Source of the DNA: Chytriomyces cf. hyalinus JEL632
Lineage: Eukaryota; Chytridiomycota; Chytridiomycetes; Chytridiales; Chytriomycetaceae
Length of the DNA: 64,000 bases
Direction: 5' to 3'
Assembly (NCBI GenBank): GCA_025435555.1
Contig: JAIWWG010000051.1
Span: 192,658 to 256,657 of the forward strand
The first letter of the stretch is position 1. Each line of letters starts with the position of its first letter. The notes beneath the pieces are model-generated. The model did not search any database, was not told the DNA's origin, and worked only from the letters and a program-made list of their open reading frames with translations. Below, one piece after another: positions 11,601 through 58,213 of the stretch. Made by a program: the position numbers and the translations under genes.

Positions 11601-11888
11601 ACTGACACGGACATAGTCGCCTTTGTTGCCTGCTTTTTCATATTCCTCAAACTCATAGCGTGTCGTGTAGAGGTCGGACGTGCACATTGTCCCGAGCAAG
11701 ATCTGCTCTTTCTCGACCTTGGCAACGGGTTTTGTTGGTTTGGCCTTCTGCTTCTTCCTTTGCTTTTGGTCTTCGTATTCGGCGAGGTCCTCGTCTTCGT
11801 TCACTTCGAAGGTCGCGGATCTGCTGAGCGTGCGCTTGAGTGGGACGGTGGTGGATGGGCCAGCATCGGACACGGCTCCTGCTCCCAT
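8637..11888 (-). CDS. SNF2-family ATPase with internal RING finger (SHPRH/IRC20/RAD5 type)
   Basis: Nuclear ATP-dependent translocase with a RING E3 module; this class acts in ubiquitin-linked DNA repair and chromatin work. Exons 11888-10980, 10919-10431, 10358-9438, 9367-8893, 8833-8637; phases close, 996 aa. Helicase motif I is GVGKT at about residues 307-311, the first residues of exon 2; motif II is DEFH at about 453; LWGLTGTP follows. A coiled region precedes a C3HC4 RING (CNIC ... CGHSFCHSC ... CPSC, about 690-735). The C-terminal lobe ends with GLNLTEASHCIILHPF and an EKQGVARVLRKGQ stretch, found only by including the small last exon. The start could also be the upstream in-frame ATG at 11933. 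Which of SHPRH, IRC20 or RAD5 it is cannot be settled here. Confidence 0.88.
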
Positions 11889-12004
11889 TTTTTTTGGATG
11901 CTGTTCTTGGAAACAAAAACTGTGACTGGGCATAGCGAAATAAATCAGTCCATTTTTATGCTCAGTCTTTGTTTATTCTCCCATTGGCTGAAACCTTGGT
12001 GCCA

Positions 12005-28912: not shown

Positions 28913-29716
28913 CTATTTTCTCTTGATTGATTTTCTGGCATGGAAACCTTCCGTCTTGATCCGATACTGTAAAAGAATCAAGAGAACAAGTTGAGAAAAA
29001 AAAACGCGATGTGATTTTGAATGTCAGGAATTATACATTTCGCTGCTTCTTCAACCATGCACGGTACCCTTGTACGGATTTGATGCTTTCTCCGTAGTAG
29101 TCTGGCATAGGGTTCTATTTTCATATCAACGGAGTTGGGAGGTTAAACATTACCGATGAGTCGAAAGAAAAAAATGGCAGATACAAACATCGACAGACAA
29201 GCGAAGCTGGCCTTGAGGTCTGTACTGCTGAATACGTTTAAAGAATTCAACGTCTTTCGCGTCGATCGCATCGAGAATTCGCCTGTTACAGGACATGAAA
29301 TGTTGTTTTTAGTTCAAAGTCTCGAAACTCGATTGAAATCAGTCACACCTGTTTGTGACTGTTCTCCATACAGCTGTTCCAGCAAACACACCCGCGACAC
29401 CGCCCAACACACCCACACCGAGAGCTCCCAGCGAATAAGCCATACTAGCATCCATCACGCCAAACACCAATTCGGTTGGGTCAAACTCGGCAACCGCCAT
29501 GAAATAGTAAGATCCGCCGAAAAAGAAGAGGGAAAATCCGGCGATGGATGAAATGCGTTCGAATGTTTTGAGTTTGCTTTTTTGGTCAAAGTATTGGGTC
29601 CATGAGAGAGAGACTGGCGATGATGCTGATGATGCGAGGCTGCGGGCATGGAATGGAGTAATGGCAGGGTTGAGGCGCATCCTGGCCGACTGCGTAAAGA
29701 GGCGAACGAGACTCAT
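28913..29716 (-). CDS. PAM17: Mitochondrial import motor subunit PAM17
   Basis: Inner-membrane subunit of the presequence translocase-associated motor (TIM23/PAM). Exons 29716-29349, 29282-29189, 29114-29037, 28966-28913; phases close, 197 aa, the usual length. An N-terminal presequence rich in Arg/Ser precedes SLSWTQYFDQKSKLK. Two membrane spans follow: IAGFSLFFFGGSYYFMAV and AMAYSLGALGVGVLGGVAGVF. The C-terminal matrix part has KDVEFFKRIQQYR and the signature NPMPDYYGESIKSVQGYRAW. The end of exon 2 (GAT before GTTTGT) is my choice among weak donors. Divergent from the uL6m gene with 87 bp between starts; both products are mitochondrial. Confidence 0.88.
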
Positions 29717-29803
29717 GACTGTGACAGTGTTTAGGCGATTTAAATTGGAGAAATATATTTTCAGTTTTTCTGGTCTATTTGAAGCAGCTTTACTTGTCGA
29801 TAA

Positions 29804-30457
29804 ATGCACGTCTCCCTTGTTGCTCTCAGCAAAGTGGGCAAACAGCTGCTCCGACTGCCAGTTGGCGTGACAATCACACGGCAGCCACTGACGAAAACTC
29901 TGCTGACGAATGTTCCGCTCGGTGTCAAGAGCGCCGTTGTTGTCAGCGGCGCTCTCGGGACTCTCGCAATGCCTGTTGCACCGTGCGTCTCTCTCGAACT
30001 TCCGCTATTGGAGAAGAAGGATTCCTCGGATGAGAAGAAGGGGGTTGAGAAGGTGGCAAAACGGTTCGTTCGTGTCTCTGTCAAAGATCCCAAGGACAAG
30101 AGACACAAGTCAATGTGGGGAACTACTAGGAGGCTCATCGAAAACATGGTTACGGGAGTTTCTGAAGGCTTCGTCATTCCTATTAAGCTGGTCGGTGTCG
30201 GATACAGGGCCGCGCTTGAGGATCAGAAAGTCTTTCTCAAACTGGGACACTCGCATCCAATCACTGTCAACGTGCCGCAAGGTGTTGATGTTAACGTCCC
30301 CGCTCCGCAGCGTTTGATTTTGCGGGGCATTGATCTCCAAGTCGTTTCGCAATTTGCCGCAAATATTAGAAAGCACAGGCCGCCTGAACCTTACAACCAA
30401 AAGGGCGTATTCGTCGGTGACGAAACCATCAAGAAGAAGGAGGGAAAGAAGCGTTAA
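29804..30457 (+). CDS. MRPL6: Mitochondrial ribosomal protein uL6 (bacterial L6 type)
   Basis: Large-subunit protein near the GTPase centre of the mitoribosome. Single exon, 217 aa. N-terminal half: VGKQLLRLPVGVTI ... GVKSAVVVSGALGTL; C-terminal half: MVTGVSEGFVIPIKLVGVGYRA, the conserved L6 core, then HPITVNVPQGVDV and RKHRPPEPYNQKGVF, the bacterial-type L6 signature. Start at 29804 keeps a short hydrophobic leader. One of few intronless genes here, paired head-to-head with PAM17. Confidence 0.93.
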   Translation: MHVSLVALSKVGKQLLRLPVGVTITRQPLTKTLLTNVPLGVKSAVVVSGALGTLAMPVAPCVSLELPLLEKKDSSDEKKGVEKVAKRFVRVSVKDPKDKRHKSMWGTTRRLIENMVTGVSEGFVIPIKLVGVGYRAALEDQKVFLKLGHSHPITVNVPQGVDVNVPAPQRLILRGIDLQVVSQFAANIRKHRPPEPYNQKGVFVGDETIKKKEGKKR

Positions 30458-30601
30458 TAATACCACTCGAAATACATACGAAAATAAAAAACGTGCATGT
30501 GAGCTGCGACAGATGGATTCGGGGCATATATTAAACACGCATTTGTATGGCGACAAAATTAAAATGATAGCGTTCCAGTTCACTTGAACAAGTCGCGTTT
30601 T

Positions 30602-32819
30602 CTAGTTGTTAGGCTTCCCTCCGAACTTTTTAAACTTGTGGAACATGGCCGCCTTGTTTCCGCCGGTTTGCTCGGCTGCTTTCGCACCGGCTGCATCCAC
30701 TGCAAACGAAGTCACAACAGCGCCAGAAGAAGCTACGGATACAGGGGGTTGCCCCAATCCAGACATGGCACCAGCACTTGCAAACTTGGCCAGCTCCAAC
30801 TCATGAATCTCGAGCAACACGTCATCGTCATCCTCTTCTTGTTGACAACCTTCAAGTTTCCTTTTTTGCTCTGCCGCACGCATTCCCCTGATTTCTCTCA
30901 AAACTTCTTCAGCGTCCAGAAACTGCACATCCAAATCATCCATGCGCAGCGCACGCTTTCCATCGCGTTCGTACCACTTGACCCAGCGCGGAGGAATTGG
31001 GTCGTCTGGAATGGCATCATTTCCTGCAGCTGCAGCATCGCGCCTTCGACACTCCATCAGTGCCTTCAACACTGCCTCACCAACTGGACTTGCACTCAGC
31101 GCTTCCTTTTGCGCTAGCGTTGCCACGCGTCGGCTCAGACTTGGGAACATGTCCAGCACTTCCCGCCCACTCTTTTTCTTCAAGTAGAACGCAACTTGCA
31201 AGTCCACAAAGAAGAATTGCTTTGAGCCGGCTTGTGATGTTGCCTCTATGTTTGCAGTGCCAGTTGTAGTGCTTGCGGCAGATGGCGCCATTTTAAATGC
31301 TTTTTTCGGCAGAGTTAATGCTGCCGTTGATGGTTGAGGTGGGGCAAGTGGAATTTTGTACAATGGAAGGCAATGGTATCGTCTGTGGGATGCTTTTTGT
31401 TGCGTTTTCTTCGAAGTCGGGGGCTGAGATACAGGGATTGGAATTTGCTGCTGTGGTATTGGTGCTTTCGTTTCAGGTGTCGATGCGACTGATATTGAAA
31501 GCGCAGATTTTGATTCGATCGTGGGAGCAATGATGATGTCTTCTGATTTAAAAAGATCAGTTGACGAGACGTTCGAAGAAAGGGTGCCAGTCGCTGCGTT
31601 ATCTTCGTCATCTGCTTTCACAGAAGCGACGGGATTGCTTGATTGCGCTTCATTTCCGGCTCGTTGGTATCCAGATATTCCAAACAGATTCTTCTTTTTG
31701 GGCTTCTTTTTAGGCGGAGAAACGGGGGCTGTCGCCAATGAATTTGCTGCAGGTGCGTGCGATGGTAGAGGAGGTATCGGGGTATTTTGCTTTCGTTGAA
31801 GACCATCCGCTAGCGGTAAATGCTGCCGTGCCTGATGCGAAGAGCGAAGTTAATTTTAAGGCGAGAGATCATTCCGAAAGCAAACGTATCCAGACCTCGG
31901 AATGTTTTGATGTCGGTCCTAATGCAGACAATGAAGTCGATTTTAAAAGTCCCTTTTCTTTTCCTTTGGGAGCACTTGCAGGCACAGACTTTCCAGCTTC
32001 TTTTTTGACTGAGTCTTCGTCAACTGGCATTTTGTCCCTCATGGGGGATCTGTTTGCGGACACAGCATCTTCTTTCCCAGTGCCAACGCTCGTCGAGGAA
32101 GGAAACTTTTTGAATTTCAATCCAGCGGTGACTGCATCCTGGGTGTTCGCAGCAGCCTTTTTTTTCAGAGCTCGCACGGTATCCTCATCAGAAGAGTGAC
32201 CTGCAACTTCTCGCGCCCGCGACCTCTTCAATCCTTTTCCTGCAACCTCTTCGCCAGCGCTTTCGTCCATATCGTCGTCTTCGTCGCTTTTGCTAATGCT
32301 GCTACTGCTACTACTGGTACTTCGTTTCTTCACACGCTTATACCGACTTTCTTTCTCGACTGCAGATTCGGAATCATCACCCGAGTCTCTATCAGATTTT
32401 CGTCCGCGCTTGCTTGCACGGCCGCCACCATCTTCATCTTCCTCATTGTCACTTTCCGATGATTCGTCCTTGTGCTTCTTGTATTTTCTCTGAGCAACAG
32501 ACTCGTCTGATGAATGTTTTTTCGGCTTCGGACCCGTTTTTGCTTTCAACGGCGCAGGCGCCATTGCCTGGAAATGAGCATGCGCAGACACTGAATACGG
32601 CCCACCGCCAATGACCCCAGCCCCGGGTTCAACACCACTTCCATTGCCCCCGCCGAGCGTTTTTAGCAACGCGTTGAATTTTCGCTCTTCGCGTGAACTC
32701 ACAAAGGGACCTTCACGATCGCGAGGGTCCAAACCACCCCAGCTGAAGCTATTGGGTCCACCCAGACCAACTGCAGCTGCAGTTGTGGCGGATATGGATG
32801 GACCTTTTGAGCCTGGCAT
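30602..32819 (-). CDS. Unrecognised Lys/Ser-rich nuclear-type protein
   Basis: Not recognised. Exons 32819-31896 and 31831-30602 (intron 64 nt), phases close, 717 aa. N terminus: VGLGGPNSFSWGGLDPRDRE then EERKFNALLKTLGGG, which could be a ligand-binding motif. Residues about 90-230 are very basic and acidic in turn (KKHKDESSESDNEEDEDG, SSSSSSISKSDEDDDMDE), typical of nucleolar or chromatin proteins. The second half holds a globular stretch: FFFVDLQVAFYLKKKSGREVLDMFPSLS ... WVKWYERDGKRALRMDDLDVQFLD, and ends KFKKFGGKPNN. Starts 51 bp from the end of the HOS4-like gene on the same strand. Confidence 0.7.
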
Positions 32820-37818: not shown

Positions 37819-39152
<1,334 letters not shown>

Positions 39153-39569
39153 TAGCCTTTGTCGAAATTATGTGTTTTTGCGGATTTGCGTTGCTGATGA
39201 GTGAAATAAACGCTACTCCCATCGAGTGTTGATTGTGGGAGTGTCATGTGCTTAAATGCTCTCTGGTGTTGCTGAGCACCATGCTTCGGAAACATGTCAT
39301 AACTGCCGACCGAAATGCACGTAACTGTTCCTGCGGTTGCCTTCAATTCTGAGACACGCTTTATGTGGATGACCCCACAGGATACAGTGTTTTATTGCGT
39401 TTGTTCATCAACTAAAATAGTAGTGTCAGCATTCCAATCAGCCGATCATATTCGATACAACCCAGGATTGCATTCAAATCCCCATTGCTGCCGTGTATGT
39501 CTCAGATACGTGCGGTAGGCATGTTTGCCAATATGCAGAGTTGAAGATTTCGAGTAGAACAGACCCGCT
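39153..39569. other. Intergenic, start of the small-gene region
   Basis: No ORF with support. The part next to S1a (about 39500-39570) is its 3' flank and resembles the flank of S1c. Confidence 0.35.
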
Positions 39570-39791
39570 TCAAATGAACTTGTTGCCGACGAAAAGTGCC
39601 GAAGCTGTCATGGACTGCTGGCTCAGAATACTTGCAATGGATGCAGTTGAAGACTCTGATGTAGTGGAGACCGGTGACTCGGCACGGGTTTTGGATGCAA
39701 GCTGTGGTTTCGGCGATCCCATTGAAAGAGCTTGGGCACTTGGGAACATGCAGGAGGACTGGGCACCGGTGGAGAAAGGAATAGCTGGCAT
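39570..39791 (-). CDS. Small Ser/Thr-rich protein S1a
   Basis: Unrecognised family, named S1 here. 73 aa, single exon. Begins MPAIPFSTGAQSS, has SMGSPKPQ and AESPVSTTSESS, and ends ILSQQSMTASALFVGNKFI. No signal peptide or membrane segment. Other copies at 40292, 41231, 43424 and a decayed one at 46695. The ATG is the point where similarity between copies becomes in-frame and strong. Upstream it shares with S1c and S1d a block at 39881-39931 and a TATA-like TATATAAAC close to 39852. Confidence 0.72.
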   Translation of the reverse strand: MPAIPFSTGAQSSCMFPSAQALSMGSPKPQLASKTRAESPVSTTSESSTASIASILSQQSMTASALFVGNKFI

Positions 39792-39880
39792 GTTTGGGTT
39801 GTTGTTGGTTGCTGTTGCTTTGATGGAGGATTCAGACAGTCGCCTTTGTTTATATATTGATTGAAGTGTGGTGAAGCTGC

Positions 39881-39931
39881 CCAAGATAATGAAATTCATG
39901 GAAACAACACCCTCGTTTTTGGTCACTCCGC
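39881..39931 (-). promoter_or_regulatory. Shared S1 upstream block, copy at S1a
   Basis: On the minus strand reads GGAGTGACCAAAAACGAGGG, then a GTTTCCATG-like part. The same block lies at a similar distance (about 90-180 bp) upstream of S1c and S1d. Confidence 0.65.
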
Positions 39932-40291
39932 TAAACCTGCTTTTCCACACAGCCAGCCATTTTCGCAGATAGAACTCGCTCTGCTCTCAGCGTTACTTGC
40001 AGCACTTGAGCGACAGTAGGCTTGGTTCAGGATTGGAATGCCACAATGTCTTGCAAACGCGCGTTGCATGAAAGCTGTTCACACAGCGAGCCGGGCATCG
40101 CCAGAGTCTTGCAATACGAGGACTGCTGCTGCCTGTTTCCCAAAATGAAAATCATACACGCGGATTGACGGGAATTTCATTGCCCACGATTTAATTTGTT
40201 GAATTTTTCGTGGGAAAGATTCGCCGTCACTACATAAACGCCGCCTCTGGCTGCCATCACAAAACAGCAAAAACATCCAACAACAAGAAAT
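39932..40291. other. Spacer between S1a and S1b
   Basis: No gene seen. Contains the S1b promoter; the S1 upstream block of the other copies is not evident here. A CGTCACTACATAAACG stretch may supply the TATA element of S1b. Confidence 0.3.
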
Positions 40292-40513
40292 ATGCCAGCC
40301 ATCTCCAACTCTGCTTCTGCCCAGTCCTCCATGTTCCCAAGTTCTCGAACCCTATCCATGGGATCCACCAAGTCCGACCAACAAACGCGTGTGGGGTCTC
40401 CCGATTCTGTCCCGTCCGCAATTTCTACTGGCACATTCAAGTCCATTGCGAGCATCCAGAATCAGCAATCCATGACAGCCTCGACTTTGTTTCTCGGAAG
40501 CAAGGTTTTGTGA
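40292..40513 (+). CDS. Small Ser/Thr-rich protein S1b (divergent copy)
   Basis: 73 aa, single exon, most divergent S1 copy: MPAISNSASAQSSMFPSS, LSMGST, VGSPDSVPS, then SIASIQNQQSMTASTLFLGSKVL. Conservation of both ends with a changed middle suggests an older duplicate still under selection, but that is inference. Confidence 0.62.
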   Translation: MPAISNSASAQSSMFPSSRTLSMGSTKSDQQTRVGSPDSVPSAISTGTFKSIASIQNQQSMTASTLFLGSKVL

Positions 40514-41230
40514 GCAGTAACATGGGGCTGGCGCAGGCCAAACCTTCCCAGCACTACCTGAGCAACAGCGTACCATTTTGGGCAGCTCATATCATACCAA
40601 TAGTCATGCCAATAGCTGGAAAAACTTCTATCCCCCAAGGAGAAAAACTATCCCCATTTTCAGCAGCATAAATAAAAAGATAAATGTCAAACCATTTGAT
40701 GCATTGCGATGTGTATGGATTGCTACTTTGATTATTTTCCACCTTTTTTGCAACCGATGCTGTGAACTGCGCTCGCAAAATTGATGTTTCAAAAACACCA
40801 TCAACGAGACCTGAAGAAGACGAGACTCGGCATTTGACTCGTGATTTGAACGACGATTGAAATGAACCGCACATGAAAGAGAGGACGTGGGGAGGGCGCT
40901 TTGTCTTCTGTTGCTCCTGAGGCCATTGGTCGTTAAAAGAAGAATATAATCATAGCCAGCTACTAATCTTGCCCATCAGTCGCTTTGAACGCAACAGTCG
41001 ATCACAGTTTCCATAATTCAGGTCTTGGGTGAAATAGAAAGTATCAGTTGGATTTTATTGTAATGGGTTGAAAGATGAATCATGCTGGCGCAGGCAGGCG
41101 CCAAAAAGGCGATCGAGAAATTTTATGCCGTTAGGCCCTCTTTTTTGCGCAGGGTATTGCTGTTGGATACGAATATTGCTTGTTGGATACGAGCATTGGC
41201 GCTAGAATATGGATTTATCGCTGAAGCGCT
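40514..41230. other. Spacer between S1b and S1c
   Basis: About 700 bp without a supported gene. The last 80 bp (41150-41230) is the 3' flank of S1c and matches the S1d 3' flank (around 43650-43700) in the order ATCCATA, CTGGC/CTAGC, CAATGCTCGTA, CCAACAA. Confidence 0.4.
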
Positions 41231-41449
41231 TCAAATGAACTTGTTGCCGAGGAACAGGGCCGAAGCTGTCAACGGCTGCTGGCTTAAGATGCTTGCAGTG
41301 GATTTGGTTGAAGACTCTGAAGTAGTGGAGGCGGGCGACTCGGCACGTGTGTCGTATGCTGCTTGTGGTTTCGGCGATCCCATGGAAAGAGCTTGGGCAT
41401 GTGGGAACATGGAGGACTGGGCACCGGTGGAGGAAGCAATGGCTGGCAT
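41231..41449 (-). CDS. Small Ser/Thr-rich protein S1c
   Basis: 72 aa, single exon. MPAIASSTGAQSSMFPHAQA, SMGSPKPQ, AESPASTTSESS, ILSQQPLTASALFLGNKFI. Very close to S1a and S1d including 5' and 3' flanks. The upstream block is at 41541-41601. Divergent from the S2 copy at 42675, with an orphan S2-type upstream region between them. Confidence 0.74.
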   Translation of the reverse strand: MPAIASSTGAQSSMFPHAQALSMGSPKPQAAYDTRAESPASTTSESSTKSTASILSQQPLTASALFLGNKFI

Positions 41450-41540
41450 GTTTGTTGTTGGTTGTTGGTTGTTGTTTGTGATGGAGGATTCAGTTGGTCG
41501 CCCTTTTTCTATTCTAGATTGAAGTGTGGCGAAGCAACCA

Positions 41541-41601
41541 CCCACGATAAAAATTCATGAAAAATCATGGAAACAAAACCCTCGTTTTTGGTCACTCCGC
41601 C
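41541..41601 (-). promoter_or_regulatory. Shared S1 upstream block, copy at S1c
   Basis: Minus strand reads GGAGTGACCAAAAACGAGGG, then TTTTGTTTCCATGATTTTTC and TTTTTATCGTGGG, the same order as at S1d. Confidence 0.7.
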
Positions 41602-42194
41602 GAACGTATCAATACGCTGTTGGTGCTCACTCACACGAACAAGTCGAGAGAAACTCAGCATCCGGAGACGCGGATTTTTGTGCTGGGTGAGTGGGTTCAT
41701 TCTAAAGGCACGTACGGCATTGTTTTTTTTCCTTCGCTTACACACCATCAAGTTATTGCATAAACGGCCAGCGAGCAAAGATAATTTTGTCAAGGGCAGC
41801 GGCTTAAACTTTACCATGAGCAGAGTCTTGGTTTGATGTGAAGGGTTGCTACTTGGCGTCAATAGTTTCAGACTGGCTCTTTCCAAGTTTGGACAGCAGC
41901 AAATTGCCAAGACGCAACAAGCGAGAAGTAGCAAAGAACCAACAGCAATGCCGCCAATCTCAATCCAGGAGAAGTTTAGCCCGACTTCAAAGTACTCGCA
42001 ATAGAGAGACAGAGCGTCTTGTTGAGTGCCAGATATGTCAAGGGACCAAGCAGGCAGGGCGACCTCATATTAAAAAATGTAATACAATCTGTGCAGCTAC
42101 AGCATGAGATATTCTTCATCCAGCGTGTTTCTGTGTCTTGGAGCAGCATCCCACTGCTTCAGTTGTGCGGATGTTCCACCCGTAACTTGTATTT

Positions 42195-42305
42195 ACCCTT
42201 GGAATACAAAAGTGAGGATTATGTGGTACTTCAACGACGTGGCACAACCGCTCAATTGAAACTCACAAAACCTTCCCAAGATAAGTTGATTCAGGGTGGT
42301 TATGG
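42195..42305 (+). promoter_or_regulatory. Orphan S2-type upstream region
   Basis: Contains AAAAGTGAGGATTATGTGGTAC, TTCAACGACGTGGCACAACCGC and CCTTCCCAAG in the same order as upstream of both S2 genes, but no S2 coding sequence follows within 350 bp. A relic of a third S2 copy is the simplest reading. Confidence 0.6.
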
Positions 42306-42529
42306 CTGACAATTGGCCTGAGTTTTAAGAGAAGACGAGGAGGAAAATGAGTCCGTGACAATGAGCAAATTTGTTGGCATGTTGGGTCGCCCCTGTTGCG
42401 CAGCAGTTGCAGTGGTGCAGTAGCTTTCTGTCGCTTTAGTCTGCAACTTGTCTCATGAGGATGGTTCTTGAATGATCGTTCTTCTCAGAAGCCCTTCTCA
42501 GAAGGGATGTTCAACGCGTGAAATCCCAA

Positions 42530-42674
42530 AATGAGGGTTGTGTGGCACTGCAATGACGTGGCGCAGTCGCTTTGCCTGTGACAATTTTCAACAAGGTTCA
42601 ACTCCCTTCCAAAGGTATAAAAGGAGCATGCACCCATCGAATAGCAGCATCCAACAACCAACGAACCAAGCAAA
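42530..42674 (+). promoter_or_regulatory. S2a promoter with TATA box
   Basis: TATAAAAG at 42616-42623, 52 bp before the ATG. Upstream: AAATGAGGGTTGTGTGGCAC, GACGTGGCGCAGTCGC and AAGGTTCAACTCCCTTCC, all conserved at S2b. The GTGGCGCAGTCG and GGTTCAACTCC parts resemble the A and B boxes of tRNA genes. Confidence 0.65.
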
Positions 42675-42851
42675 ATGCACAAGAACTCTCCAGCTGCCGT
42701 CGCTTCCTTCACCAGCAAGAACCTCGTCTTTACCCACAATGACAGCACGGGTCTTCCCTTGTCACGCAACGGCACCGCCGACTCGACGCAGTCGCGCAGC
42801 AGTCTCAAGTCATTGCGCTCTGTGTGGGCCACTCTGTTTCGCAGAAACTGA
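42675..42851 (+). CDS. Small basic protein S2a
   Basis: Unrecognised family, named S2 here. 58 aa, single exon: MHKNSPAAVASFTSKNL, FTHNDSTGLPLSRNGTADS, then SLKSLRSVWATLFRRN. The copy at 47338 differs at only 5 residues. Codons end in C or G far more than neighbours (TTC, ACC, AAC, CTC), suggesting high expression. The 3' flank is also conserved (CCAACAGCCAGCA-AAGCAAG, later GTAAAATAAACAA). Confidence 0.78.
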   Translation: MHKNSPAAVASFTSKNLVFTHNDSTGLPLSRNGTADSTQSRSSLKSLRSVWATLFRRN

Positions 42852-43277
42852 GCGTGTCCAACAAGACCAAACGTCGTCGGCGGACAGCTCTCCTAAAAAT
42901 GATGGCGGATGAAGTGTCTGCCAACAGCCAGCACAAGCAAGATGTCCAACGACCACTGAAAACAAGAGCCGCGTATTCATTGACAGATTACTGGAGTTTT
43001 GATTCTGTAAAATAAACAACACCAATATCTGCATCAACGCTCAATGAAACTGTTTAATTTTAAGAAAGCGGAGTTGTGACAACGCACCAAGGCTGGATAT
43101 GTGTAAAGCAAGGATAGGTCCCATTGAACGTGTCTTGCGTCTTGCAATTCGTTCCCTTGACGATTTGGTTTCAAGCGCAGTCACTGGAGTTTCTCTGACA
43201 CAAAAACTGATACGCAAACGCGACAGCAATGCCGAAGCAGAGCCAATCATTGGCAAACATGAGACTGGAAGTTCGGC
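42852..43277. other. S2a 3' flank and spacer
   Basis: AATAAAC at about 43012 could be the polyadenylation signal. A 61-codon ORF at 43099-43284 (+) has no counterpart near other S1/S2 copies, so it is not called. Confidence 0.4.
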
Positions 43278-43335
43278 GGAGTGACCAAAAACGGGGGTTT
43301 TGTTTCCATGATTTTCCATGAATTTTTATCGTGGG
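43278..43335 (+). promoter_or_regulatory. Shared S1 upstream block, copy at S1d
   Basis: GGAGTGACCAAAAACGGGGG, TTTTGTTTCCATG, ATTTTTATCGTGGG; followed by a TATA element TATAAACAAG at 43351, 73 bp before the S1d start. Confidence 0.7.
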
Positions 43336-43423
43336 CACATTCCAATCCAGTATAAACAAGGGCGGTCAACCATCCCTCCATCAAAACAACGACAACAACC
43401 AACAACCCCACAACAATTCAAAT

Positions 43424-43645
43424 ATGCCAGCTATTGCTTCCTCCGCCGGTGCTCAGTCCTCCTCCATGTTCCCATGTGCCCAAGCTCTTTCCATGGGATC
43501 GCCGAAACCACAACCAGCATCTGAGACCCGTGCCGAGTCACCTGTTTCCACTGCTTCAGAGTCTTCAACTACATCCATTGCAAGTATTCTGAGCCAGCAG
43601 TCCATGACGGCGTCTGCGCTTTTCCTCGGCAACAAGGTTATCTGA
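43424..43645 (+). CDS. Small Ser/Thr-rich protein S1d
   Basis: 73 aa, single exon: MPAIASSAGAQSSSMFPCAQ, SMGSPKPQPAS, AESPVSTASESS, ILSQQSMTASALFLGNKVI. The S1 C-terminus (S-I-x-S-I ... A-x-LF-x-x-N) resembles that of S2 (S-L-x-S-L ... A-T-LF-x-x-N), so the two families may be related. Placed 570 bp downstream of S2a on the same strand. Confidence 0.75.
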   Translation: MPAIASSAGAQSSSMFPCAQALSMGSPKPQPASETRAESPVSTASESSTTSIASILSQQSMTASALFLGNKVI

Positions 43646-46600
43646 AGCATTTCTCTGGCGAATCCATACTCTGGCAGCAATGCTCGTAACCAACAATGAT
43701 GCCCCCTGCGAAATAATAATGCCCGACGGCAAAGAATTCCTAGCTGGCATTTTTTAGATTCCCTTTCTGTTCCACCTGTCGCCGACGACTTGGAGCAGCT
43801 TCTCTTGCATCAACACATTACAATAAAATGCAACTGATATTTCACCATGTTTAAACAAGAAATGCCAGTGTGCAAACATCTCATAAAACGTTGGTAGCCT
43901 TAGTAGCCATTGTCATAAATCGCGGACATTGTTCTTGTGCAGACGCCACAAGAAGATCAAGAGGGTTGGATGTGTGTGGTGCGCAACTGTCACCGTCAGT
44001 TTTAAGGAAATGATCCGCATGTTTGGCACAGTCTCTGCAAGTCTTAAATTAGTGGTGACGAAATAGACAGTGTTGAAATCTGGGAAAAACAAACCAACGG
44101 TGCGTGTGATCGAAACTTGCATTCAGAAAAACAACCTGAACGAAGAAAGTTGAGCAGAAATGTACTAACCAATGAGGAATCAATACCTAGTGAGTACAAT
44201 TGTCCTTCAACCCTAACTAATGTAGCCATGGGTCATGTACTCTATCTAAGCAATCTATACCTTCTACTGTCTGGTGGGACAGATTACCTACACTGGATGA
44301 AATTCCTAAACATGTAGCCTGCTGACTGAATTTGCGTGTACAGTTCCTTCTCGATTCGATATTCATGATCTCATTGTTTTCGATCTTCAACTTTGAACAG
44401 GACGCCCATCTCTTGGTCCGTCCATCAAATGCCAACAACTTGCCCCCAACTTTCGCCCATCCGATCCCAGAGGTGCGCCAACAAACGCGCTGAAAGGGTC
44501 GCTGTATCGCTGCCGTTACGGTGCGAGGATCCCTTCAATGGAACCTTCGAAGCAACGACGTGAGACACAAGCAATCGTTCTGTTCATGCACCCACAGACC
44601 AATGTTTTCTCAGGAAATCCACTCGTTGATTACGCAATAATTGCCAAAGGATGGCTTGCGAACTGAGCATCTTCACGTCAGACCAACTGGCTTGCCTGCC
44701 TGTCAATGATCGAAATATTCCAGCCTGCTCAATGCGACGGCCACTCGAAGAACTATTTCAAGGGTGACTTGTTCGGCCAGTTGAATTTATTCCGGATCAG
44801 CTTTCAAATCTGCGAAACCAGCTACAAAGTGCGATGTTTGTTGCATTGCCTGGCGCTCATATTCTGAAGAGAGGAGCCAATCTAGTCAGGCCTTTACATC
44901 ATTTGTTTTTGATTCTTGATACTGCTGTGGTTCGGAGAGTGTGGCAGAAGGGGATTCTTGGTTGTGGCTCCAAGCAATACATCGCAATTCGACAACAACA
45001 CCCGCAGCTGTTTATCGCATCATTTCATCTGTCCTGGAACCATTCAATGCGTTGGAATGTGCATGATATTTCAGCTGCCGTCGATTCTTTGCTTGACGAA
45101 AAGGAAACCATCCAGGAGGAGTGAATCAACTGCGGAATTGATTCAAACGACAGCAACATCAGTAAGCTTACCGCATGAATTTTCCGTGCATTTGTTTGTG
45201 CTCGCAGGTGTTGATGAGACGCGTGAATATGTCGGCTGAGGAGTTTCGGTGCAAACCGCTCTTTCGAATCCCTCGCTGAGTTTAAAGCATTCGGCATATG
45301 CTTACTCATTTGGTTTAAAACCACGTATGCCGTTCACTGGATCGTTTCGAAGGTACGCGTAATTTCTCGATTCATCAGAGTGCTGATCCTCATTGGGGTT
45401 GCGCGAGGGGTGCGGACAAGGAGCGAAGATAGGGAACACAATGCAGTTTGGGATGCGTTGGCGACAGTACTGCTGGTGCTGGTGTCGGTGTCTGTCCTGG
45501 CGGTGCAGTTTGAATGGGTGTTGGTGCAGTCTGCTCAGATGTCGTTGGGGTGCTGGTGTTGGTGACACTGCCTGCTCAGGTTGCGCAAGGGGGGGCTGCT
45601 TTGCTTTTTGGCGGGGTACTGATCGGAGAATTTCAATGCAGGTATAAATGGCAGCCTCTTGACGTCAAAATGTTGTCAAAAAAACTTGCCCAAAAACAAA
45701 GTGAGCACATCAAAACAAACTTCCCCACATCCGCCCACACTCTGCTAATCGACACCACACCACCTCTCTGTTGTATACACAGGCATCCACTCGCTCTTCC
45801 ATGACCTCTTCTCGCGTTGAAGCAACTTGAACCCTCAAGTCCTCACGCACCCCACACCCACCCAAGCAAGTCATCTCCTCGTCACCATTACGTCGTCATC
45901 ACAAGACCCGCTCGTCGTCGCGCCCCGCCCTTTCAAAATCAAACTGTTAAGAGCAAAACCACACATACAAGAGCAGAGGGCACTGCACACCCAACACACA
46001 AGAGCAAAGCGCACTGCACACCCAACACACAAGAGCAGAGGGCACTGCACACCCACATACAAGAGCAAAGGGCACTGCACACCCACTCACAAGAGCAAAA
46101 AGTGGTTCCAGCACCGAAGGCGCGGGGCCATGTTGACGACGCGTCGGTTGGTGATGACATGGTGTCGCACACAAGATGGGCAGGCAGCCGGTAGGTATCT
46201 GAGATGGGGGAGGGCACTCAGGTAGTCAACTGGGTGGCTCTCCCTTATCCGATTTCCTTGCTCTCTCCTGTTTTCGTTGGATACAACGTGCTTGCTATGT
46301 GGCTACTTGGGATTCGACGCAGCGGTTTCAGGTGATGAGTTGGATATGTGACGCATAGTCGATGCAACCAAACTGGATGGGCTCTTGTCGGTCGTCCCAT
46401 CCGTTCGAGCTGCATTGTACTCGCATATCCAACTGTTTCTTTTATTTTATTCATGTTCCTCTATCTAATATCTTTGCAAAAGCCGAAACGACGGTATACG
46501 ACCGGGCATGATCCAGAGAGTTGGAGACCGGAGCCGGAGCCCGTGGCCTGTATGGCAGTATGTAGTCAGCGTTCATGTTTTTGTTTTCTTTGTTTTGAAT

Positions 46601-46694
46601 AAAAAGATATTTCTGCGTGCCTGTTTGCTTCTTGTCCTCGTCACCATCTTTTCACAGCTTTTAAATGAATACATGGAACATAAACTTACGAAAG
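43646..46694. other. 3 kb region without a supported gene
   Basis: Starts with the S1d 3' flank. Open frames such as 44834-45124 (+, 96 codons) and 45380-45565 carry no domain, intron or repeat support. 45400-45600 is a GGTG/TGGTG-rich strand-biased stretch. A minisatellite lies at 45967-46100. No tRNA, rRNA or transposase is seen. Confidence 0.45.
45967..46100. repeat. Minisatellite, 30-31 bp unit x 4.4
   Basis: Head-to-tail units of the form ACAAGAGCARAGSGCACTGC plus ACACCCA and a variable 3-5 bp end; unit lengths 31, 31, 30, 30, then a partial copy. No spacers, so not CRISPR. Confidence 0.9.
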
Positions 46695-46905
46695 ATGCCA
46701 GTCAGAACCACTTCCACCCATGCCCAGTACTCCGTGTTCCCACGCGTCTCATCTCTTTCGGCGGGATCACCTAATCCAGTGCCGAGTCACCCATTTCTGC
46801 TGCGTCAGAATATTCAGCCGTATCGAACAAATCCGGTACAAGCATTCCAAGCCAGCTGCCATGACAGCTTCGGCGCCTTTCTCGGCAATGAGTTCATCTG
46901 GAAAA
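46695..46905 (+). pseudogene. Decayed S1 copy (S1e)
   Basis: Aligns with S1d from the start codon to the end: ATGCCAGTCAGAACC, then GGGATCACCTAATCCAG, GCCGAGTCACCCATTTCTGC, AAGCATTCCAAGCCAGCTGC, CATGACAGCTTCGGCGCCTT, GGCAATGAGTTCATCTGG. Several one-base shifts break the frame and the stop is lost (TGA to TGGA). It lies upstream of S2b, whereas S1d lies downstream of S2a. Confidence 0.65.
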
Positions 46906-47154
46906 TGTCCCTGCTTCTGCCTGAATCGTCAACTCCAAGAGTTGGTTACACTTTACCTGCTGCGCTCATCTGGAGCATGCGATACCAGTAATGGTCAGAT
47001 GGTGCTGTGTCGCCCGCAAGTCTTCCATCACTGCAGTCATGCTTCTGCTCATGCACCGTCTATCACGGTATTAAGCATTTCTGTCATGGGGTTATTCAAT
47101 ACTGGATGGTTCTGGAATGATCCTCGTCCTTCTCCGGGATTAAGTTCAACGCGC

Positions 47155-47337
47155 GGAACAAGTTGATCCAAAAGTGAGGGTTATGTGGCACTTCAAGTGA
47201 CGTGCGTGGCACAGTCGCTTCACTTTTCGACTGGGTTCAAATCCCTTCCAAAGAAAAAACCATATAAAAGGCCGGCACCCCTCTCCATCAAACAACAGCA
47301 TAAAACCAACAAACTAACCAACGACCAAATCAAAAGA
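47155..47337 (+). promoter_or_regulatory. S2b promoter with TATA box
   Basis: TATAAAAG at 47263-47270, 68 bp before the ATG. Upstream it matches the S2a region: AAAGTGAGGGTTATGTGGCAC, GTGGCACAGTCGCTT (47206-47220) and GGTTCAAATCCCTTCC (47234-47249). Confidence 0.65.
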
Positions 47338-47514
47338 ATGCACAAGAACTCTCCCGCCGCCGTTGCTTCCTTCACCAGCAAGAATCTGGCCTTTACCCAC
47401 GCCGATACAACGGGTCTTCCCTTGTCGCGCAACGGCACCGCCGACTCGAAGCAGTCGCGCCGCAGTCTCAAGTCGTTGCGCTCTGTATGGGCGACCCTGT
47501 TTCGAAGAAACTGA
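47338..47514 (+). CDS. Small basic protein S2b
   Basis: 58 aa, single exon: MHKNSPAAVASFTSKNL, FTHADTTGLPLSRNGTADS, SLKSLRSVWATLFRRN. Differs from S2a by five substitutions and no indels, indicating purifying selection or recent duplication. The 5' flank over about 180 bp and the 3' flank over about 200 bp are recognisably shared with S2a. Confidence 0.78.
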   Translation: MHKNSPAAVASFTSKNLAFTHADTTGLPLSRNGTADSKQSRRSLKSLRSVWATLFRRN

Positions 47515-47961
47515 GTTCCGTCCTGCAAGCCCAACATCATAAGCGGCAGCTTCCCTTAAAATGTTGAGCCTGCCAACAGCCAGCATAAGCAAGCAGTTTA
47601 ACGACACCCGAAAATGAGAGCTTCTTTTTCACATGGATGGATTCATTTAACTCTTAATCCTGTTAAAATAAACAATATCATTAACTATACCTACATCTTC
47701 ATGCACACGTCATGAAACTATTCGACCTGAAGAGGCTTTTCTTCTTCTGTCAACGCGTCTTTATGTTACTTTACCATCTGGTTTCCTGCAAGGAAGGTTT
47801 CTGACTGCAGAAGCCCTTCACCGTTCCACACGTCATCCGGCCATTTAAAATTAAGTGTACAAGAATATCTGATTTATTTTTTTGCGACGCACACAGGGGC
47901 ATGGCTACTGCATGCGAACCACTGGAATTTTGCCGCTTAAAAAACTCATCTTCCTCTATCT
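47515..47961. other. S2b 3' flank and 3' region of the OPT gene
   Basis: GTTAAAATAAACAATATC at about 47664 parallels the S2a 3' flank. No gene seen. Confidence 0.4.
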
Positions 47962-50463
47962 CTAATTACAAGCAGGGTCCTGTTCAGGGTCGTACTCAAA
48001 TCCGTACGCGTTGCCCATAGTTCCATGGTCCATACAGTCAAGCACATCAGTTGGCAGACATCTCTCAATGTCACCAGAGTTCATGAACCAAGATGGGAAC
48101 GGCATCTGGTACTTGGGGTTGAACTGCACCATGAAGAAGAGAATCAACAGCATCACACCGGTTCCAGAGTCAAACGCAGCAGACATGACGTATGCGTACT
48201 TCTTCCACCAAGTGTGGCGGTACTTTTTGACAAAGTAGTTGACAATGACGGAGATGGCCAAGGGAGTGATCAAGTCGGATCTACGGGCACCAGCGTAGGC
48301 GGGGAAGATGAAGATGAGGGGAATGTTGACCAAGTGCCAGAAGGAGTTGGGTTGGAGTTTGTGCAGGTACCATGGGATAACTGGCAAGATACCACCAATC
48401 AGGAATCCAAGGAGGGTCTTGAAGTATGGAGATTCGGGTCCAAAGAAACGAGCTGGGGCAATAGCTCCCCAAATGGCACCGGCGGACAAGAAGGTGTTGT
48501 AGTTGTTGGAGGACCAACCGGAGGCTGGGTCGTTGGCCTGGACTTGCATCAACCATTGGAATCCAGCTGGGAATTCCGCAGAGACTGGCTTGTCAATTTT
48601 ACCAAAGGACTCGTAAATGGCAGCGGCGGTACCAGTGGAGACAAGGGCTCCCGCGATGGTAGAGACCAACTGAGCCATGAACATGACTCTGGGTGGAACC
48701 TTAAGGTAGTGACCAAGCTTCAAGTCAGCAACAAGGTAGAGACCTTGGTACATGGCCATGTAAGAGAAGGTCTTGAAAGCCATGACGGCAGAGATACGAC
48801 CGGGGAGGAGAAGTCCAATAAGGAACTCGGACATGACGTTGAGACCAATTTGCTGACCAGAGATAGCCTGGATGGTTCCGATGGGAATAATGGAAACCAA
48901 AGCGAGCAACATGGCCAAGATGGTACCCCACCATGGCAGGTCGAATCCTCCCCACTGGCAGACAACGATGGCAATAACCGTGTTGATAACAAGAATAACC
49001 ATGAACCACCAGTCAGGCACGTCTGGGTAGGCGTCCATGAGAGTAGCGTGAATGTCGTTTCTGTCCAAGTCCTTCAATGTGGCTCTGAAACGGTGCCAAA
49101 TGTCCTTTCCGTACCACAGACCGACGTGAACCAAGGCAGCAATGAACACGACAAAGGAGTTGGCGTACTCAAGGGCAAAGTAGGTGGTGATAAGGATGGG
49201 CTTGTTCTCGTCGTAGAAGGTTTGATTGAGAATCAATGAGTTGCGGTCATCTGGGCTACGGATGACAAACTTGGTGTTGGGGATACGAATACCCTTCTTG
49301 TTGTAGGTAGATGGAGCGTTGATGGTGAATCCATAGGTGGACTTGGCTCCAATGGACTTGTCGTTGTAGAAGGCCTCGCTGTACCAAAGAATGGGGGTAA
49401 CAATCCACAAGAACAACCAGAGACCCAAGAACTGGTTCATCATGGCCCAAAGTGGGGTAGTGATTGGAGCGTAGACGTTGCAGAGGGACCAGTCAAGGGT
49501 GAAGGAAAGGAGACCGACACCACCACCGTAGGAACCACTTCCAAGAACGAGAGCCATCTGGTTGTCCTTCTTGTTGTTGGTGAACCAGCAGATGACTGAA
49601 AGGGCACCAAGCATTGGGGCAACGTAACTTGGCAAGAGCTGGTAGAAGAACATGGCGGAAGCGGCGAGCCAGAAGAACTTGTAACGGCTCATTGGGTAGC
49701 GAGAGTTGGTACCGTCGTCTCTTCCGTGCAGGGAGTTCAACATGGCGATGGTAGCCAAGTTGGATGGCCACAGCATAGCGGCTGGGCGGACCAAGTAACG
49801 ACGCGTAAGACCTGTTTCAAGTACAATTGAGCAATGATTCTCAGAAAGAAGGAATTCAATTTTTCTCACCAGCAAATCCGTAACCGAAACATTGGGTCAC
49901 AATTGCGAATCCAAAACCGCTGAGGAGAGACAAGTCAGTTTGGTACAGCTGGTACTTTTGACCGACAATGTTGTACAGAGCGTAAGGGGGCGAAGCCATG
50001 CAGGAAGTCATGACGAAAATAAGCGCATGCTCCTTGTAGTTAAAAGCACCGGGGTTCAAAAAACCGCTGGGAAGGAACTTGGCCATGGCCAAACCGCATG
50101 GGTATGCCAACAGCACCGTCACGAAGGGAGAGACGGCAAAGTAGTTGGAACGGAAAGTGAAAATGGTGTTGGCGCAGCAAATCATCACTCCGAACGTGAG
50201 ACCAAGGAACCACACACGGAATGTGTTGGATGGAAGGGTGGTGTCATCGGTACGTGGAACGACCGCATCACTGGACAAGAGCAAGTTAGTCACTGTCACT
50301 GATGCATCCACGATAGGGATCAGACTTACATAATGTCATAGATTTCGTCAATGTAGTCGTCTTCCTGGTCGGCAATGGCCTGGATCTTCTCCTCGGTCAC
50401 GAACTGGGGTTCGTCGGCCTTGTCGCCTGGGACCTGGTGAGCGCGTTCTGTGTCTGCAGTCAT
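47962..50463 (-). CDS. Oligopeptide transporter, OPT family
   Basis: Proton-coupled importer of small peptides (or glutathione) in the plasma membrane. Exons 50463-50330, 50270-49870, 49811-47962; phases close, 794 aa, the family size. An acidic cytosolic N terminus (DQEDDYIDEIYD) leads to many membrane spans: FRVWFLGLTFGVMICCANTI, SPFVTVLLAYPCGLAMAKFLP, LNPGAFNYKEH, RPAAMLWPSNLATIAMLNSL, and later GLNVMSEFLIGLLLPGR, a region conserved in OPT proteins. It ends YDPEQDPACN. Codon use favours C/G-ending codons, as in well-expressed genes. Which substrate is carried cannot be told. Confidence 0.94.
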
Positions 50464-55630: not shown

Positions 55631-56047
55631 GATTGTAACTGCCTTTTCTGTTGATTATTTGGGGTGGGGAATGGGTCCCGTTTTTAACACTGAAGAAAAT
55701 TGATTTTCAACCATGACGTGGAACAGCAAACTTGTGCATTCCGACCCCAAATATTGGGATGCTTCCAGCGACATCATAACAAACGCGACTAATGACTACG
55801 GGAGCATACTTGTTAGCCTTTGGCTTTAACACAGACACGGTACCGGCGCCACATTCTGACATCAACACCGCCAACGACATCATTTGCAGCCATTCCCAAA
55901 ACTCTCCCAACCATCTTAAGCATCTTTCGAACTCACGCTCATCATAAAAATTGTCCAGTATACGCTCCAAGCGTTGCGCAAAAGTGGTGACAAAAGTGGT
56001 GCAGCTTGGGATTTTTGCTTGAAGCAAACACTTGACCACAAAGGAAA
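55631..56047. promoter_or_regulatory. Divergent promoter region (COPB2-like / GNAT)
   Basis: 417 bp between divergent starts. A 115-codon minus-strand ORF (55707-56054) crosses the GNAT start and has no supporting features, so it is not called. Confidence 0.35.
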
Positions 56048-56749
56048 ATGCCATCCTTCACCATCGAGCCCGCAGTCCCCGCCGACATCCCCGTCCTTGC
56101 ATACATCGCAGGTTCTTCCTTCCAAAGCGACAGACATACTCAGATGAAGATGAAGGGCGCCAAACCGTATAACCATGAAGAGGGTATGACGGGTGCTTTG
56201 ACCCACTGGATGGACAGACCTGCCAAATGCACGGTTTTGAAGGTTGTTGATGCTGAGAGTGGTGCTATTGCGGGATGGGTTTGCTGGGCAATGTCCGGGT
56301 ACGAGGCTGAACCTGTCGTTGTGACGGCAGTGCCTGCACCGGATGAACCAAGCCAAGCCGAAGAAGCTGCAGTGCCAGAAGACCCCATCGAACGCCTCGA
56401 AGCCATGACCAACGCCGACATGAACAACTGGTACACTAAGTTGACCCCACCTCACAAAAAGGTCCGCTTCATTGCGTCTATTTGTGTGGACCCCAAGTTT
56501 CAGTCCAAAGGTGTTGGGTCAATGTTGATCACGTGGGGTACGTCCAAGGCAGACACTGAGGGGGGCACAGCCTGGGTACATGCCTCAGAGGCTGGAAGGG
56601 GCATGTTTGCAAAGATGGGTTTTGAGCCAGTCGGCACTTTGGACGTGGATTTGGACCTGTACTCACCTGCTCCTGCCGATGACGGCAAAAAGTGGGGAAG
56701 ATACGTGTTTACATACATGCAGAGGCAACCACGTGTTGCAAATGAATAA
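56048..56749 (+). CDS. GNAT-family N-acetyltransferase
   Basis: Single exon, 233 aa. GNAT fold: N-terminal strand FTIEPAVPADIPVLAYIAGS, central AIAGWVCWAMSG, then the acetyl-CoA loop IASICVDPKFQSKGVGSMLITWG (Q-x-x-G-x-G), AWVHASEAGRGMFAKMGFEPVG, the last motif typical of fungal small-molecule acetyltransferases. Substrate unknown. Converges with the broken chitinase. Confidence 0.88.
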   Translation: MPSFTIEPAVPADIPVLAYIAGSSFQSDRHTQMKMKGAKPYNHEEGMTGALTHWMDRPAKCTVLKVVDAESGAIAGWVCWAMSGYEAEPVVVTAVPAPDEPSQAEEAAVPEDPIERLEAMTNADMNNWYTKLTPPHKKVRFIASICVDPKFQSKGVGSMLITWGTSKADTEGGTAWVHASEAGRGMFAKMGFEPVGTLDVDLDLYSPAPADDGKKWGRYVFTYMQRQPRVANE

Positions 56750-56859
56750 AAATGAACGCATGCGTTTGTTTTATTAGATGGCACCAAATACTGGTTGCTG
56801 ATGGAGTAAAAAAAAACGACAGTCCTGCTGCCCTTAGGCAGATCATCCCCTCAACATGG

Positions 56860-58160
56860 CATTGGTAAGCTCATTGTTGTAATCCAAACTGATTTCCTAC
56901 ACCATCACACCTCCAAAACCTTGCGCCTTGCCCCACTTGGACTTTGTCGCATGAAATAAACGTATTGCCCAACCTCAAAGTCGCGCTCTCAAAGATTCTA
57001 AAATACTTGCGCGTCCAGCCTGTTCGAGGAGTCGTTTGGCTCAAAGGCGCGTTTGTCTGACTACGCATGTTTCTCCAGCTCCAAACACCAGAATACGACG
57101 TTGCTCCAGTGCATTTATCGGCTTCAAGAGCATCATCCTTGTCTCCTTTAATAGCAACGCATGCTCCGTTCAGAGGATTTGGAGAAGTGTGTCAATAGTT
57201 TTGACCTGCCAAGATCGTCCGTAAATACGAAACACCAGGAACAAGCTTTTTCTTTGAGACCCCGGCTTGAATATGCGTTCATGGCAGAAGAGATGGAACT
57301 TTGTCCAGGGTTTCGATCAATGAGTTTAGGATCCGCGCTCAAAACCGAGTTAAAGTCCGAGAATTTGGACCATGGACCGTTGAAATCGTACGGCATGACA
57401 GTCATGTAGCTCACTTCATTCTCAATCGCTTTCAGGTTCAAACCGTATGGAGTCACACTGGACGAGACGGCGATTGAAATCACAATAGTGCGACCCAACT
57501 TGACACGCAATTGTTGGAGCAGCAGAACAAAGTTGTTGGCATCATCATTTTCACGTTTCGAGTTGCAGGAGAGGCCGTTGTTGCCGCCAGGGTATTCTCA
57601 GTCCAAGTCGACGCCATCGAAGCCTGATAAGAAATTTTTAATGGACTGCTGGGTGTCACAAAGGACAATCAGCCACCATTCGCATCCAGCAGTTGAAGCA
57701 CATTGTCCCCAAACGCGCCCCGCATTTCAACAATTGATGCCATGTCGGAAAAGTATCTTGATCCCGTCCATCCCCCGATCGCCGCAACTGTGCGCAACTC
57801 TGTGCGCGAAATGCCGGCAGATTCAGAGAGTCTCCCAAGCATCCGATGATGTAACGGCACCTTGGCCGTCAACAAAATAGAATGCGTAGTTAACCACGTT
57901 GATGCCAGTCAGAGTAAGGTCTTCGGGCTTGTTACGGGAGTAGCGTGCCCAGTTGGCGTAGTAGACGACGGTTTCTGGTGTGCCTGCGGACGGGCGGTAA
58001 TCGAATGCCGCTGCTAGGGTCGTGCTGGAGACTGTGCAAGAGTCAGTGGGAGCAACAGTGGGAGAAACTTGAGAAACATGTTGGTTCGTCTTTGCGAGGA
58101 GCAGCAGTGTCACCCCAGCAACAGCGAGTGCGATCCAAACTTTGGTTCGGCATTTTCATC
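56860..58160 (-). pseudogene. Broken GH18 chitinase gene
   Basis: Glycoside hydrolase 18 (chitinase) remnants in order on minus: a hydrophobic leader VWIALAVAGVTLLLLA; ETVVYYANWARYSRNK and INVVNYAFYFVD (barrel strands 1-2); AAIGGWTGSRYFSDMAS; active site FDGVDLD-stop-EYPGG (57600-57598 is TGA where the family has TGG, Trp); ISIAVSSSVTPYGLNL; SYMTVMPYDFNGPW; NAPLSQTTPRTGWTRKYF. The frame changes between most blocks, the ATG is out of frame with the leader, and the 3' end decays. GH18 enzymes cut chitin using the Glu after this Trp. Several independent lesions make sequencing error alone unlikely. Confidence 0.8.
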
Positions 58161-58213
58161 TCTTCTTTTTTTTTTTTATCACCCGCGAAATGAATTGAAC
58201 ACGCCAGCAGCTT

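Follow-up and report, generated by a model that had tools for sequence, protein, structure and literature searches.

Two probable families of very short protein-coding genes share an island in the genome of Chytriomyces cf. hyalinus JEL632

Two families of short genes, which we call S1 and S2, lie together in an island of about nine kilobases in Chytriomyces cf. hyalinus JEL632. The window we analysed is the whole stretch of 64,000 nucleotides at positions 192658-256657 of contig C190 (C190:192658-256657) in an assembly of 37.8 Mb and 242 contigs, and within it the island (39153-47961) holds five S1 copies, four of them intact and one decayed, together with two of S2, placed on both strands. 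On the evidence of how their sequences have evolved, S1 and S2 are almost certainly genuine protein-coding genes, apparently with a single exon each, and part of the island recurs almost unchanged at a second locus. A preliminary description of this DNA had listed the copies, and open reading frame (ORF) and tblastn searches recovered every one of them in place:

39570-39791, minus strand: S1a, intact, 73 amino acids; recovered as an ORF and by tblastn
40292-40513, plus strand: S1b, intact, 73 amino acids, belonging to a divergent lineage (S1b) of the family; lacks a TATAWA within 100 bp
41231-41449, minus strand: S1c, intact, 72 amino acids; no TATAWA within 100 bp; recovered as an ORF and by tblastn
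42675-42851, plus strand: S2a, intact, 58 amino acids, with a predicted basic amphipathic C-terminal helix
43424-43645, plus strand: S1d, intact, 73 amino acids; contig C2 encodes an identical protein
46687-46913, plus strand: S1e, a decayed S1 whose frame is broken; the islands on C2, C13 and C198 have decayed copies related to it
47338-47514, plus strand: S2b, intact, 58 amino acids; recovered as an ORF and by tblastn

In tblastn searches within the window, intact S1 copies match one another at E values of 3e-10 to 6e-27, and those of S2 do so at 6e-26 and 3e-32. Matches to the decayed S1e are fainter as protein (5e-5 to 0.03) and clearer as DNA (5e-13 to 3e-10). Given these values, the similarity is not due to chance. 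S2a and S2b agree at 53 of 58 residues (91%) with no indel, as described before. Genome-wide, S1 occurs in at least 32 places at E <= 0.001, to which queries with diverged members add places on C187 and C177 and, as a broken copy, one on C199, and S2 in at least 16 places at E <= 1; these counts are lower bounds and include alleles or homeologues. The S1b copies of C190, C2, C13 and C198 form one group in the tree.

From the whole genome we took intact copies with their flanks, 27 of S1 and 15 of S2, amounting to 23 and 13 unique coding sequences. Copies were picked individually because an iterative S1 profile drifted into S2 through ORFs that hold decayed S1. Left outside the selection tests were fragments or broken copies of S1 (on C204, C99 and C163, at C198:230.7k and C111:168.0k, and the S1e-like copies) and of S2 (at C13:251.5k and C202:202.6k), together with the S1 matches on C187, C177 and C199. 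Maximum-likelihood codon models took their tree from the free model, and the null model, with a ratio of nonsynonymous to synonymous substitution rates (dN/dS, or omega) of 1, was run with five kappa values. The resulting statistics are only indicative, because intact copies alone entered and conversion makes copies non-independent: omega is 0.298 for the 23 unique S1 and 0.149 for the 13 unique S2 sequences, with omega = 1 rejected at twice the log-likelihood difference (2dlnL) of 137.4 and 99.9, and the island copies by themselves give 0.298 for S1 and 0.195 for S2 (2dlnL 69.4 and 50.8). Medians of pairwise NG86 estimates are 0.24 for S1 (219 of 253 pairs usable) and 0.33 for S2 (76 of 78). 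The preliminary description had proposed dN/dS between copies as a check, and it lies far under 1 in both families; its reading of S1 and S2 as maintained protein genes is borne out by this purifying selection in the sense frame. That frame is open in 23 of 23 unique S1 and 13 of 13 unique S2 sequences, as expected of copies chosen as intact, and its mean amino-acid similarity reaches z = 4.90 for S1 and 4.01 for S2, compared with values of 2.96 and 1.81 in the best of the antisense frames (59 S1 and 57 S2 pairs scored, 60 having been sampled from 253 and from 78).

Neither family has a convincing match in Pfam or the PDB. Pfam searches found no known domain in S1 or S2, in agreement with the preliminary description; the best Pfam match of S1, EMC1_C (E 0.014 in four of 18 S1 members), and the PDB profile matches to histone H2B (E 0.085) and uracil-DNA glycosylase (0.2) were taken as chance. 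A second PDB profile search gave no match, and no relation in sequence between S2 and any Pfam or PDB entry was found. In the protein database S1 has two matches with a single query and seven with a profile, among 7985 candidates scored, and all seven belong to Chytriomyces, namely JEL632 and entries labelled C. hyalinus (tags HDU77, HDU78 and HDU81); S2, searched with a single query, has none. Absence outside Chytriomyces is weak evidence, because the database search needs shared exact words and annotated proteins. The database entries for S1 homologues are hypothetical proteins, and several of the seven public models look wrong: P0003, P0004 and P0007 hold two S1 copies per protein, P0002 has the usual C-terminus replaced, and P0001 carries an extra N-terminus. 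Neither family is described in the titles and abstract openings of the literature we covered. The C-terminal pattern that S1 and S2 had been said to have in common proved unconvincing (hhalign probability 2.2, E 0.021; column-shuffle p 0.02, uncorrected and between proteins of similar composition), and the same two comparisons leave the idea of a single family unsupported.

Within each family, conservation is concentrated in short blocks. S1 proteins share an initial MPA in most copies, SMFPxAxxLSM and SQQSMTAxxLFVGNK, on either side of a variable, Ser/Thr-rich middle, and both motif blocks remain recognisable in copies on C210, C111, C16 and C90 that are 38-56% identical to S1d. Both C210 members (524572-524901, 109 amino acids; 525427-525753, 108 amino acids) carry an extra MFPRA/LFPRA...LSM block, a duplication which suggests that the motif itself is a functional unit. 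An AlphaFold model of S1 built from seven sequences is of low confidence throughout (mean predicted local distance difference test, pLDDT, 56.5; predicted template modelling score, pTM, 0.12), which is consistent with disorder, and we tentatively regard S1 as a disordered carrier of motifs, a description with clearly less than an even chance of being right. An internal repeat in S1 was also considered and found unsupported (N half against C half, p 0.058). S2 proteins share MHxNSPxAxASxT.KN, VFTH, LPLSR and a basic C-terminal stretch. In all five S2 sequences tested, out of 13 unique ones, this C-terminus is amphipathic, with a hydrophobic moment (muH) over 18 residues of 0.50-0.66 and a net charge of +3 to +6; whole-protein shuffles give p 0.002-0.048 for each, uncorrected. 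The moment is highest in the two most diverged members, on C202 and C156, where residues are altered and the pattern is kept, and an AlphaFold model from two sequences places a helix at residues 37-57 (pLDDT 76-80 over 41-58, mean 62.7). Membrane binding through this helix is the best-supported functional piece of our account, plausible although we stop somewhat short of expecting it. No signal peptide is visible by eye in either family, and no predictor was run.

Upstream of the genes, we mapped these elements:

39849-39856, minus strand: TATA-like box of S1a, 63-65 bp 5' of the ATG
42616-42621, plus strand: TATA-like box of S2a, 59 bp 5' of the ATG
43329-43336, plus strand: TCGTGGGC element upstream of S1d, a word that recurs upstream of S1 genes
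43351-43356, plus strand: TATA-like box of S1d, 73 bp 5' of the ATG
47263-47268, plus strand: TATA-like box of S2b, 75 bp 5' of the ATG

Conserved TATA elements had been claimed for these genes; a TATAWA does lie within 100 bp of the ATG in four of the six intact genes in the window, but the pattern is weaker than claimed, as the other two have none. Genome-wide, counting by eye, 15 of 27 S1 and 12 of 15 S2 copies have one at most 100 bp from the ATG, and many of the leaders appear by eye to be CAA-rich. TCGTGGGC or its complement stands upstream of six of ten S1 representatives, distant loci included, and of none of four S2, a frequency that is not significant by itself because shuffles of the same set reach up to 7 for 8-letter words; in several S1 copies it sits about 92-97 bp 5' of the ATG. 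Codons ending in C or G, also reported for S2, are indeed frequent there: G+C content at third codon positions (GC3) is 0.53-0.78 over the 13 unique copies, with a median of 0.74 and 12 of 13 at 0.69 or above. Six local genes or exons span 0.40-0.66 (a ribosomal-protein exon 0.58, the OPT gene 0.66), and S1, at 0.50-0.63, falls inside that range.

The island also stands on contig C2, between a side that looks by eye like an M20 peptidase and a pectate lyase and a side that looks SH3-like (no domain search was made), not between the THI4 and OPT genes that flank it in the window, and the C2 flanks have no match to window positions 33000-58000. The two islands share the following stretch:

40365-47564, no strand assigned: near-identical to C2 at about 467.4-474.7k, with 26 mismatches and no gap over 7200 bases (about 99.6%)

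In steps of 300 bp, C190 and C2 are 98.7-100% identical over 40365-47264 and 96% identical in 47265-47564, the last 300 bases, which hold 11 of the 26 mismatches; to the left, identity is 84% in 40065-40364 and about 65% further out (65-84% over 39465-40364). Identity falls abruptly at both ends, and near-identity so sharply bounded suggests recent ectopic gene conversion or copying. On C13, two inverted island copies are 99.5% alike over 4 kb. Against C190, the C13 islands are about 79-84% alike and the shared flanks 90-93%, a faster divergence of the island that is partly expected because the flanks hold constrained genes. The C13 inverted duplication pairs 187006-190990 with 266812-262829 at 99.5% and 190989-193000 with 255681-253670 at 99.4%, and one arm lacks about 7 kb. 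The copies are most simply explained if the island was duplicated long ago and so came to stand at two loci, and if ectopic conversion or copying then acted recently on some of the chromosomes.

In the window, the island is bordered by a THI4 gene at 37942-39152 (PF01946, 2e-25, over the first part of the gene) and an OPT transporter gene at 47962-49776 (PF03169, 4e-101). Six other ORFs in the island, two of them antisense to S1, have no Pfam match at the cut-off, the best being TMEM18 (E 0.015; it scores 15.6 bits, where 26.9 would be required), and Rfam at gathering thresholds finds no family over 39153-47961. The island also contains a dispersed repeat, S3:

45644-46272 (about), plus strand: S3 repeat, with a TATA-like start
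45962-46099, no strand assigned: tandem array inside S3, period 31, 4.5 copies

Pieces related to S3 lie on twelve contigs (C228, C163, C22, C13, C198, C41, C2, C222, C164, C1, C193 and C34), and its conserved stretch ends in a splice-donor-like GTGAGT or GTAAGC in most aligned copies. S3 is probably no protein gene, since the stretch led by its first ATG changes frame from one copy to another; it may represent a non-coding transcript or else a non-autonomous element. The further genomic copies, the second locus with its sharply bounded tract, the S2 helix and S3 are all additions to the preliminary description, which was confined to the window.

Taken together, we find it somewhat probable that S1 and S2 are two separate families of short proteins, restricted to Chytriomyces, whose genes were duplicated locally and homogenised at a second locus. 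In the mechanism we propose, S1 and S2 genes would multiply through local inverted and tandem duplication, and ectopic conversion or copying would homogenise the island at the second locus. Short promoters and CAA-rich leaders would serve to express the small proteins. The basic amphipathic C-terminal helix of S2 may attach to negatively charged membranes and so present the conserved N-terminus (NSPAAVASxTSKN..FTH, LPLSR), and S1 may be a disordered protein that carries two short motifs for binding, SMFPRAxxLSM and SQQSMTAxxLFVGNK, with a Ser/Thr-rich linker between them that is free to vary. A bolder version, which we think improbable, would make S1 and S2 the halves of one Chytriomyces-specific system, in which S2 coats a particular membrane, such as the one around the lipid globule of the zoospore, and recruits partners bound by S1 through the short motifs, and in which the clusters interconvert and so hold copy number and sequence.

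Several observations weigh against this account or parts of it. Public models of several S1 genes propose splicing or fusion rather than single exons, and the apparent restriction to Chytriomyces may reflect poorly annotated short ORFs elsewhere. Two island copies on C198 are unhomogenised, at about 77-90% identity, and the near-identity of C190 and C2 could be an assembly error. Upstream, a TATAWA within 100 bp is missing in 12 of 27 S1 copies, and no word, including one common to S1 and S2, beats the shuffle maximum (10, 7 and 4 for 7-, 8- and 9-letter words), so that co-regulation of the two families is unsupported. For the proteins, the AlphaFold models of S1 and S2 are weak, low confidence does not prove disorder, and the amphipathic signal seen in S2 is absent from the four S1 proteins tested (whole-protein shuffle p 0.41-0.94).

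Other explanations address either the genes themselves or the arrangement of their copies. An ORF antisense to S1 (for example 39574-39861, plus strand) might be the real gene, or both strands might be coding: 15 of 23 unique S1 and 12 of 13 unique S2 sequences have an open antisense frame, with the z values given above. Constraint in that frame is an expected by-product, because the third codon positions of both frames coincide; the copies examined have an open sense frame, and this frame has the higher similarity score; position 1 of the S1 sense frame is more variable than position 2, with summed differences of 6098 and 4232, the usual picture in real codons; and the TATA boxes lie on the sense side, the only side scanned. 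We consider an antisense gene extremely improbable. S1 and S2 might instead be small effectors or toxins that leave the cell with no signal peptide and diversify in an arms race, as their lineage restriction, their multicopy clusters and the cationic amphipathic helix of S2, a feature that also occurs in some antimicrobial peptides, would fit. Selection is purifying overall rather than diversifying, in a test that was gene-wide and not site by site, inspection by eye showed no signal peptide, and Chytriomyces hyalinus is a saprotroph; an effector role seems unlikely.

As to the arrangement, the island could be a transposon insertion, with S1 and S2 as passengers or coding parts of a mobile element. 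It is a sharp-edged block in an unrelated context, on the left side several copies end within a few bases of the same point (window 39564-39568, beside the S1a stop codon), S3 is dispersed, and on C163 a truncated S1 piece adjoins an S3-related copy. However, no mobile-element Pfam match was found in either family or in the six further ORFs of the island that were scanned, some small ORFs remaining unscanned; the right edges differ (they lie at window 43036 for C13 190603, 47596 for C2 467436 and 47575 for C198 168179); gene order is broadly alike across copies; and S1 loci on C111, C210, C16 and C90 have no match to the S3 region, match counts being lower bounds. The preliminary description had named membership of a known transposon as a possible alternative; as far as Pfam and copy structure tell, S1 and S2 belong to none, and no sign of one was seen in the island, though no search was made there for terminal repeats or target-site duplications. 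We judge a mobile element distinctly unlikely. A more serious concern, which we think doubtful yet deserving of weight, is that the near-identical tract of C190 and C2 arose in assembly or phasing, in which case the genes would be real and concerted evolution wrong. Window regions 9400-11900, 29000-31300 and 55800-58300 are each present in two to four copies that are 82-94% identical; the assembly thus seems to hold diverged haplotypes or homeologues together with segmental copies and is therefore prone to misjoins, such settings being ones in which assemblers misjoin, and the edges of the tract are abrupt. Against an artefact, the tract is imperfect in the way described, and the separate inverted pair on C13 is just as closely alike, though possibly from the same cause.

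Families of this kind have parallels in known categories. Like orphan multicopy small-protein families of fungi, S1 and S2 are short, Ser-rich, domainless, clustered, under purifying selection and found in one genus in the data searched; unlike them, two families without demonstrable kinship share one cluster, and that cluster stands at two loci with near-identical stretches. The C13 copies, far closer to one another than to those on other contigs (about 79-84%), recall families homogenised by ectopic gene conversion, whereas the C198 pair departs from that pattern, the cargo here consists of small genes, and conversion, of whatever direction and mechanism, is a proposed source of the identity beside a possible assembly error. 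S2 resembles small proteins that bind membranes through an amphipathic helix at one end in the moment and charge of its C-terminus, but it stands apart from catalogued sequences and its binding is predicted. Many genes of early-diverging fungi lack known counterparts, and those that are very short can readily be overlooked or mis-modelled; S1 and S2 would add at least two very short gene families under selection, with exact motifs. If the identity between the two loci is true, the cluster is a compact natural example of gene copying and homogenisation between loci in a fungus, although this case alone settles no long-standing question. Elsewhere in the window, ORFs at 9390-11933 on the minus strand have an SNF2/RING-type look by eye (no domain search was made) and many partial DNA relatives on C169, C176, C180, C216 and C222.

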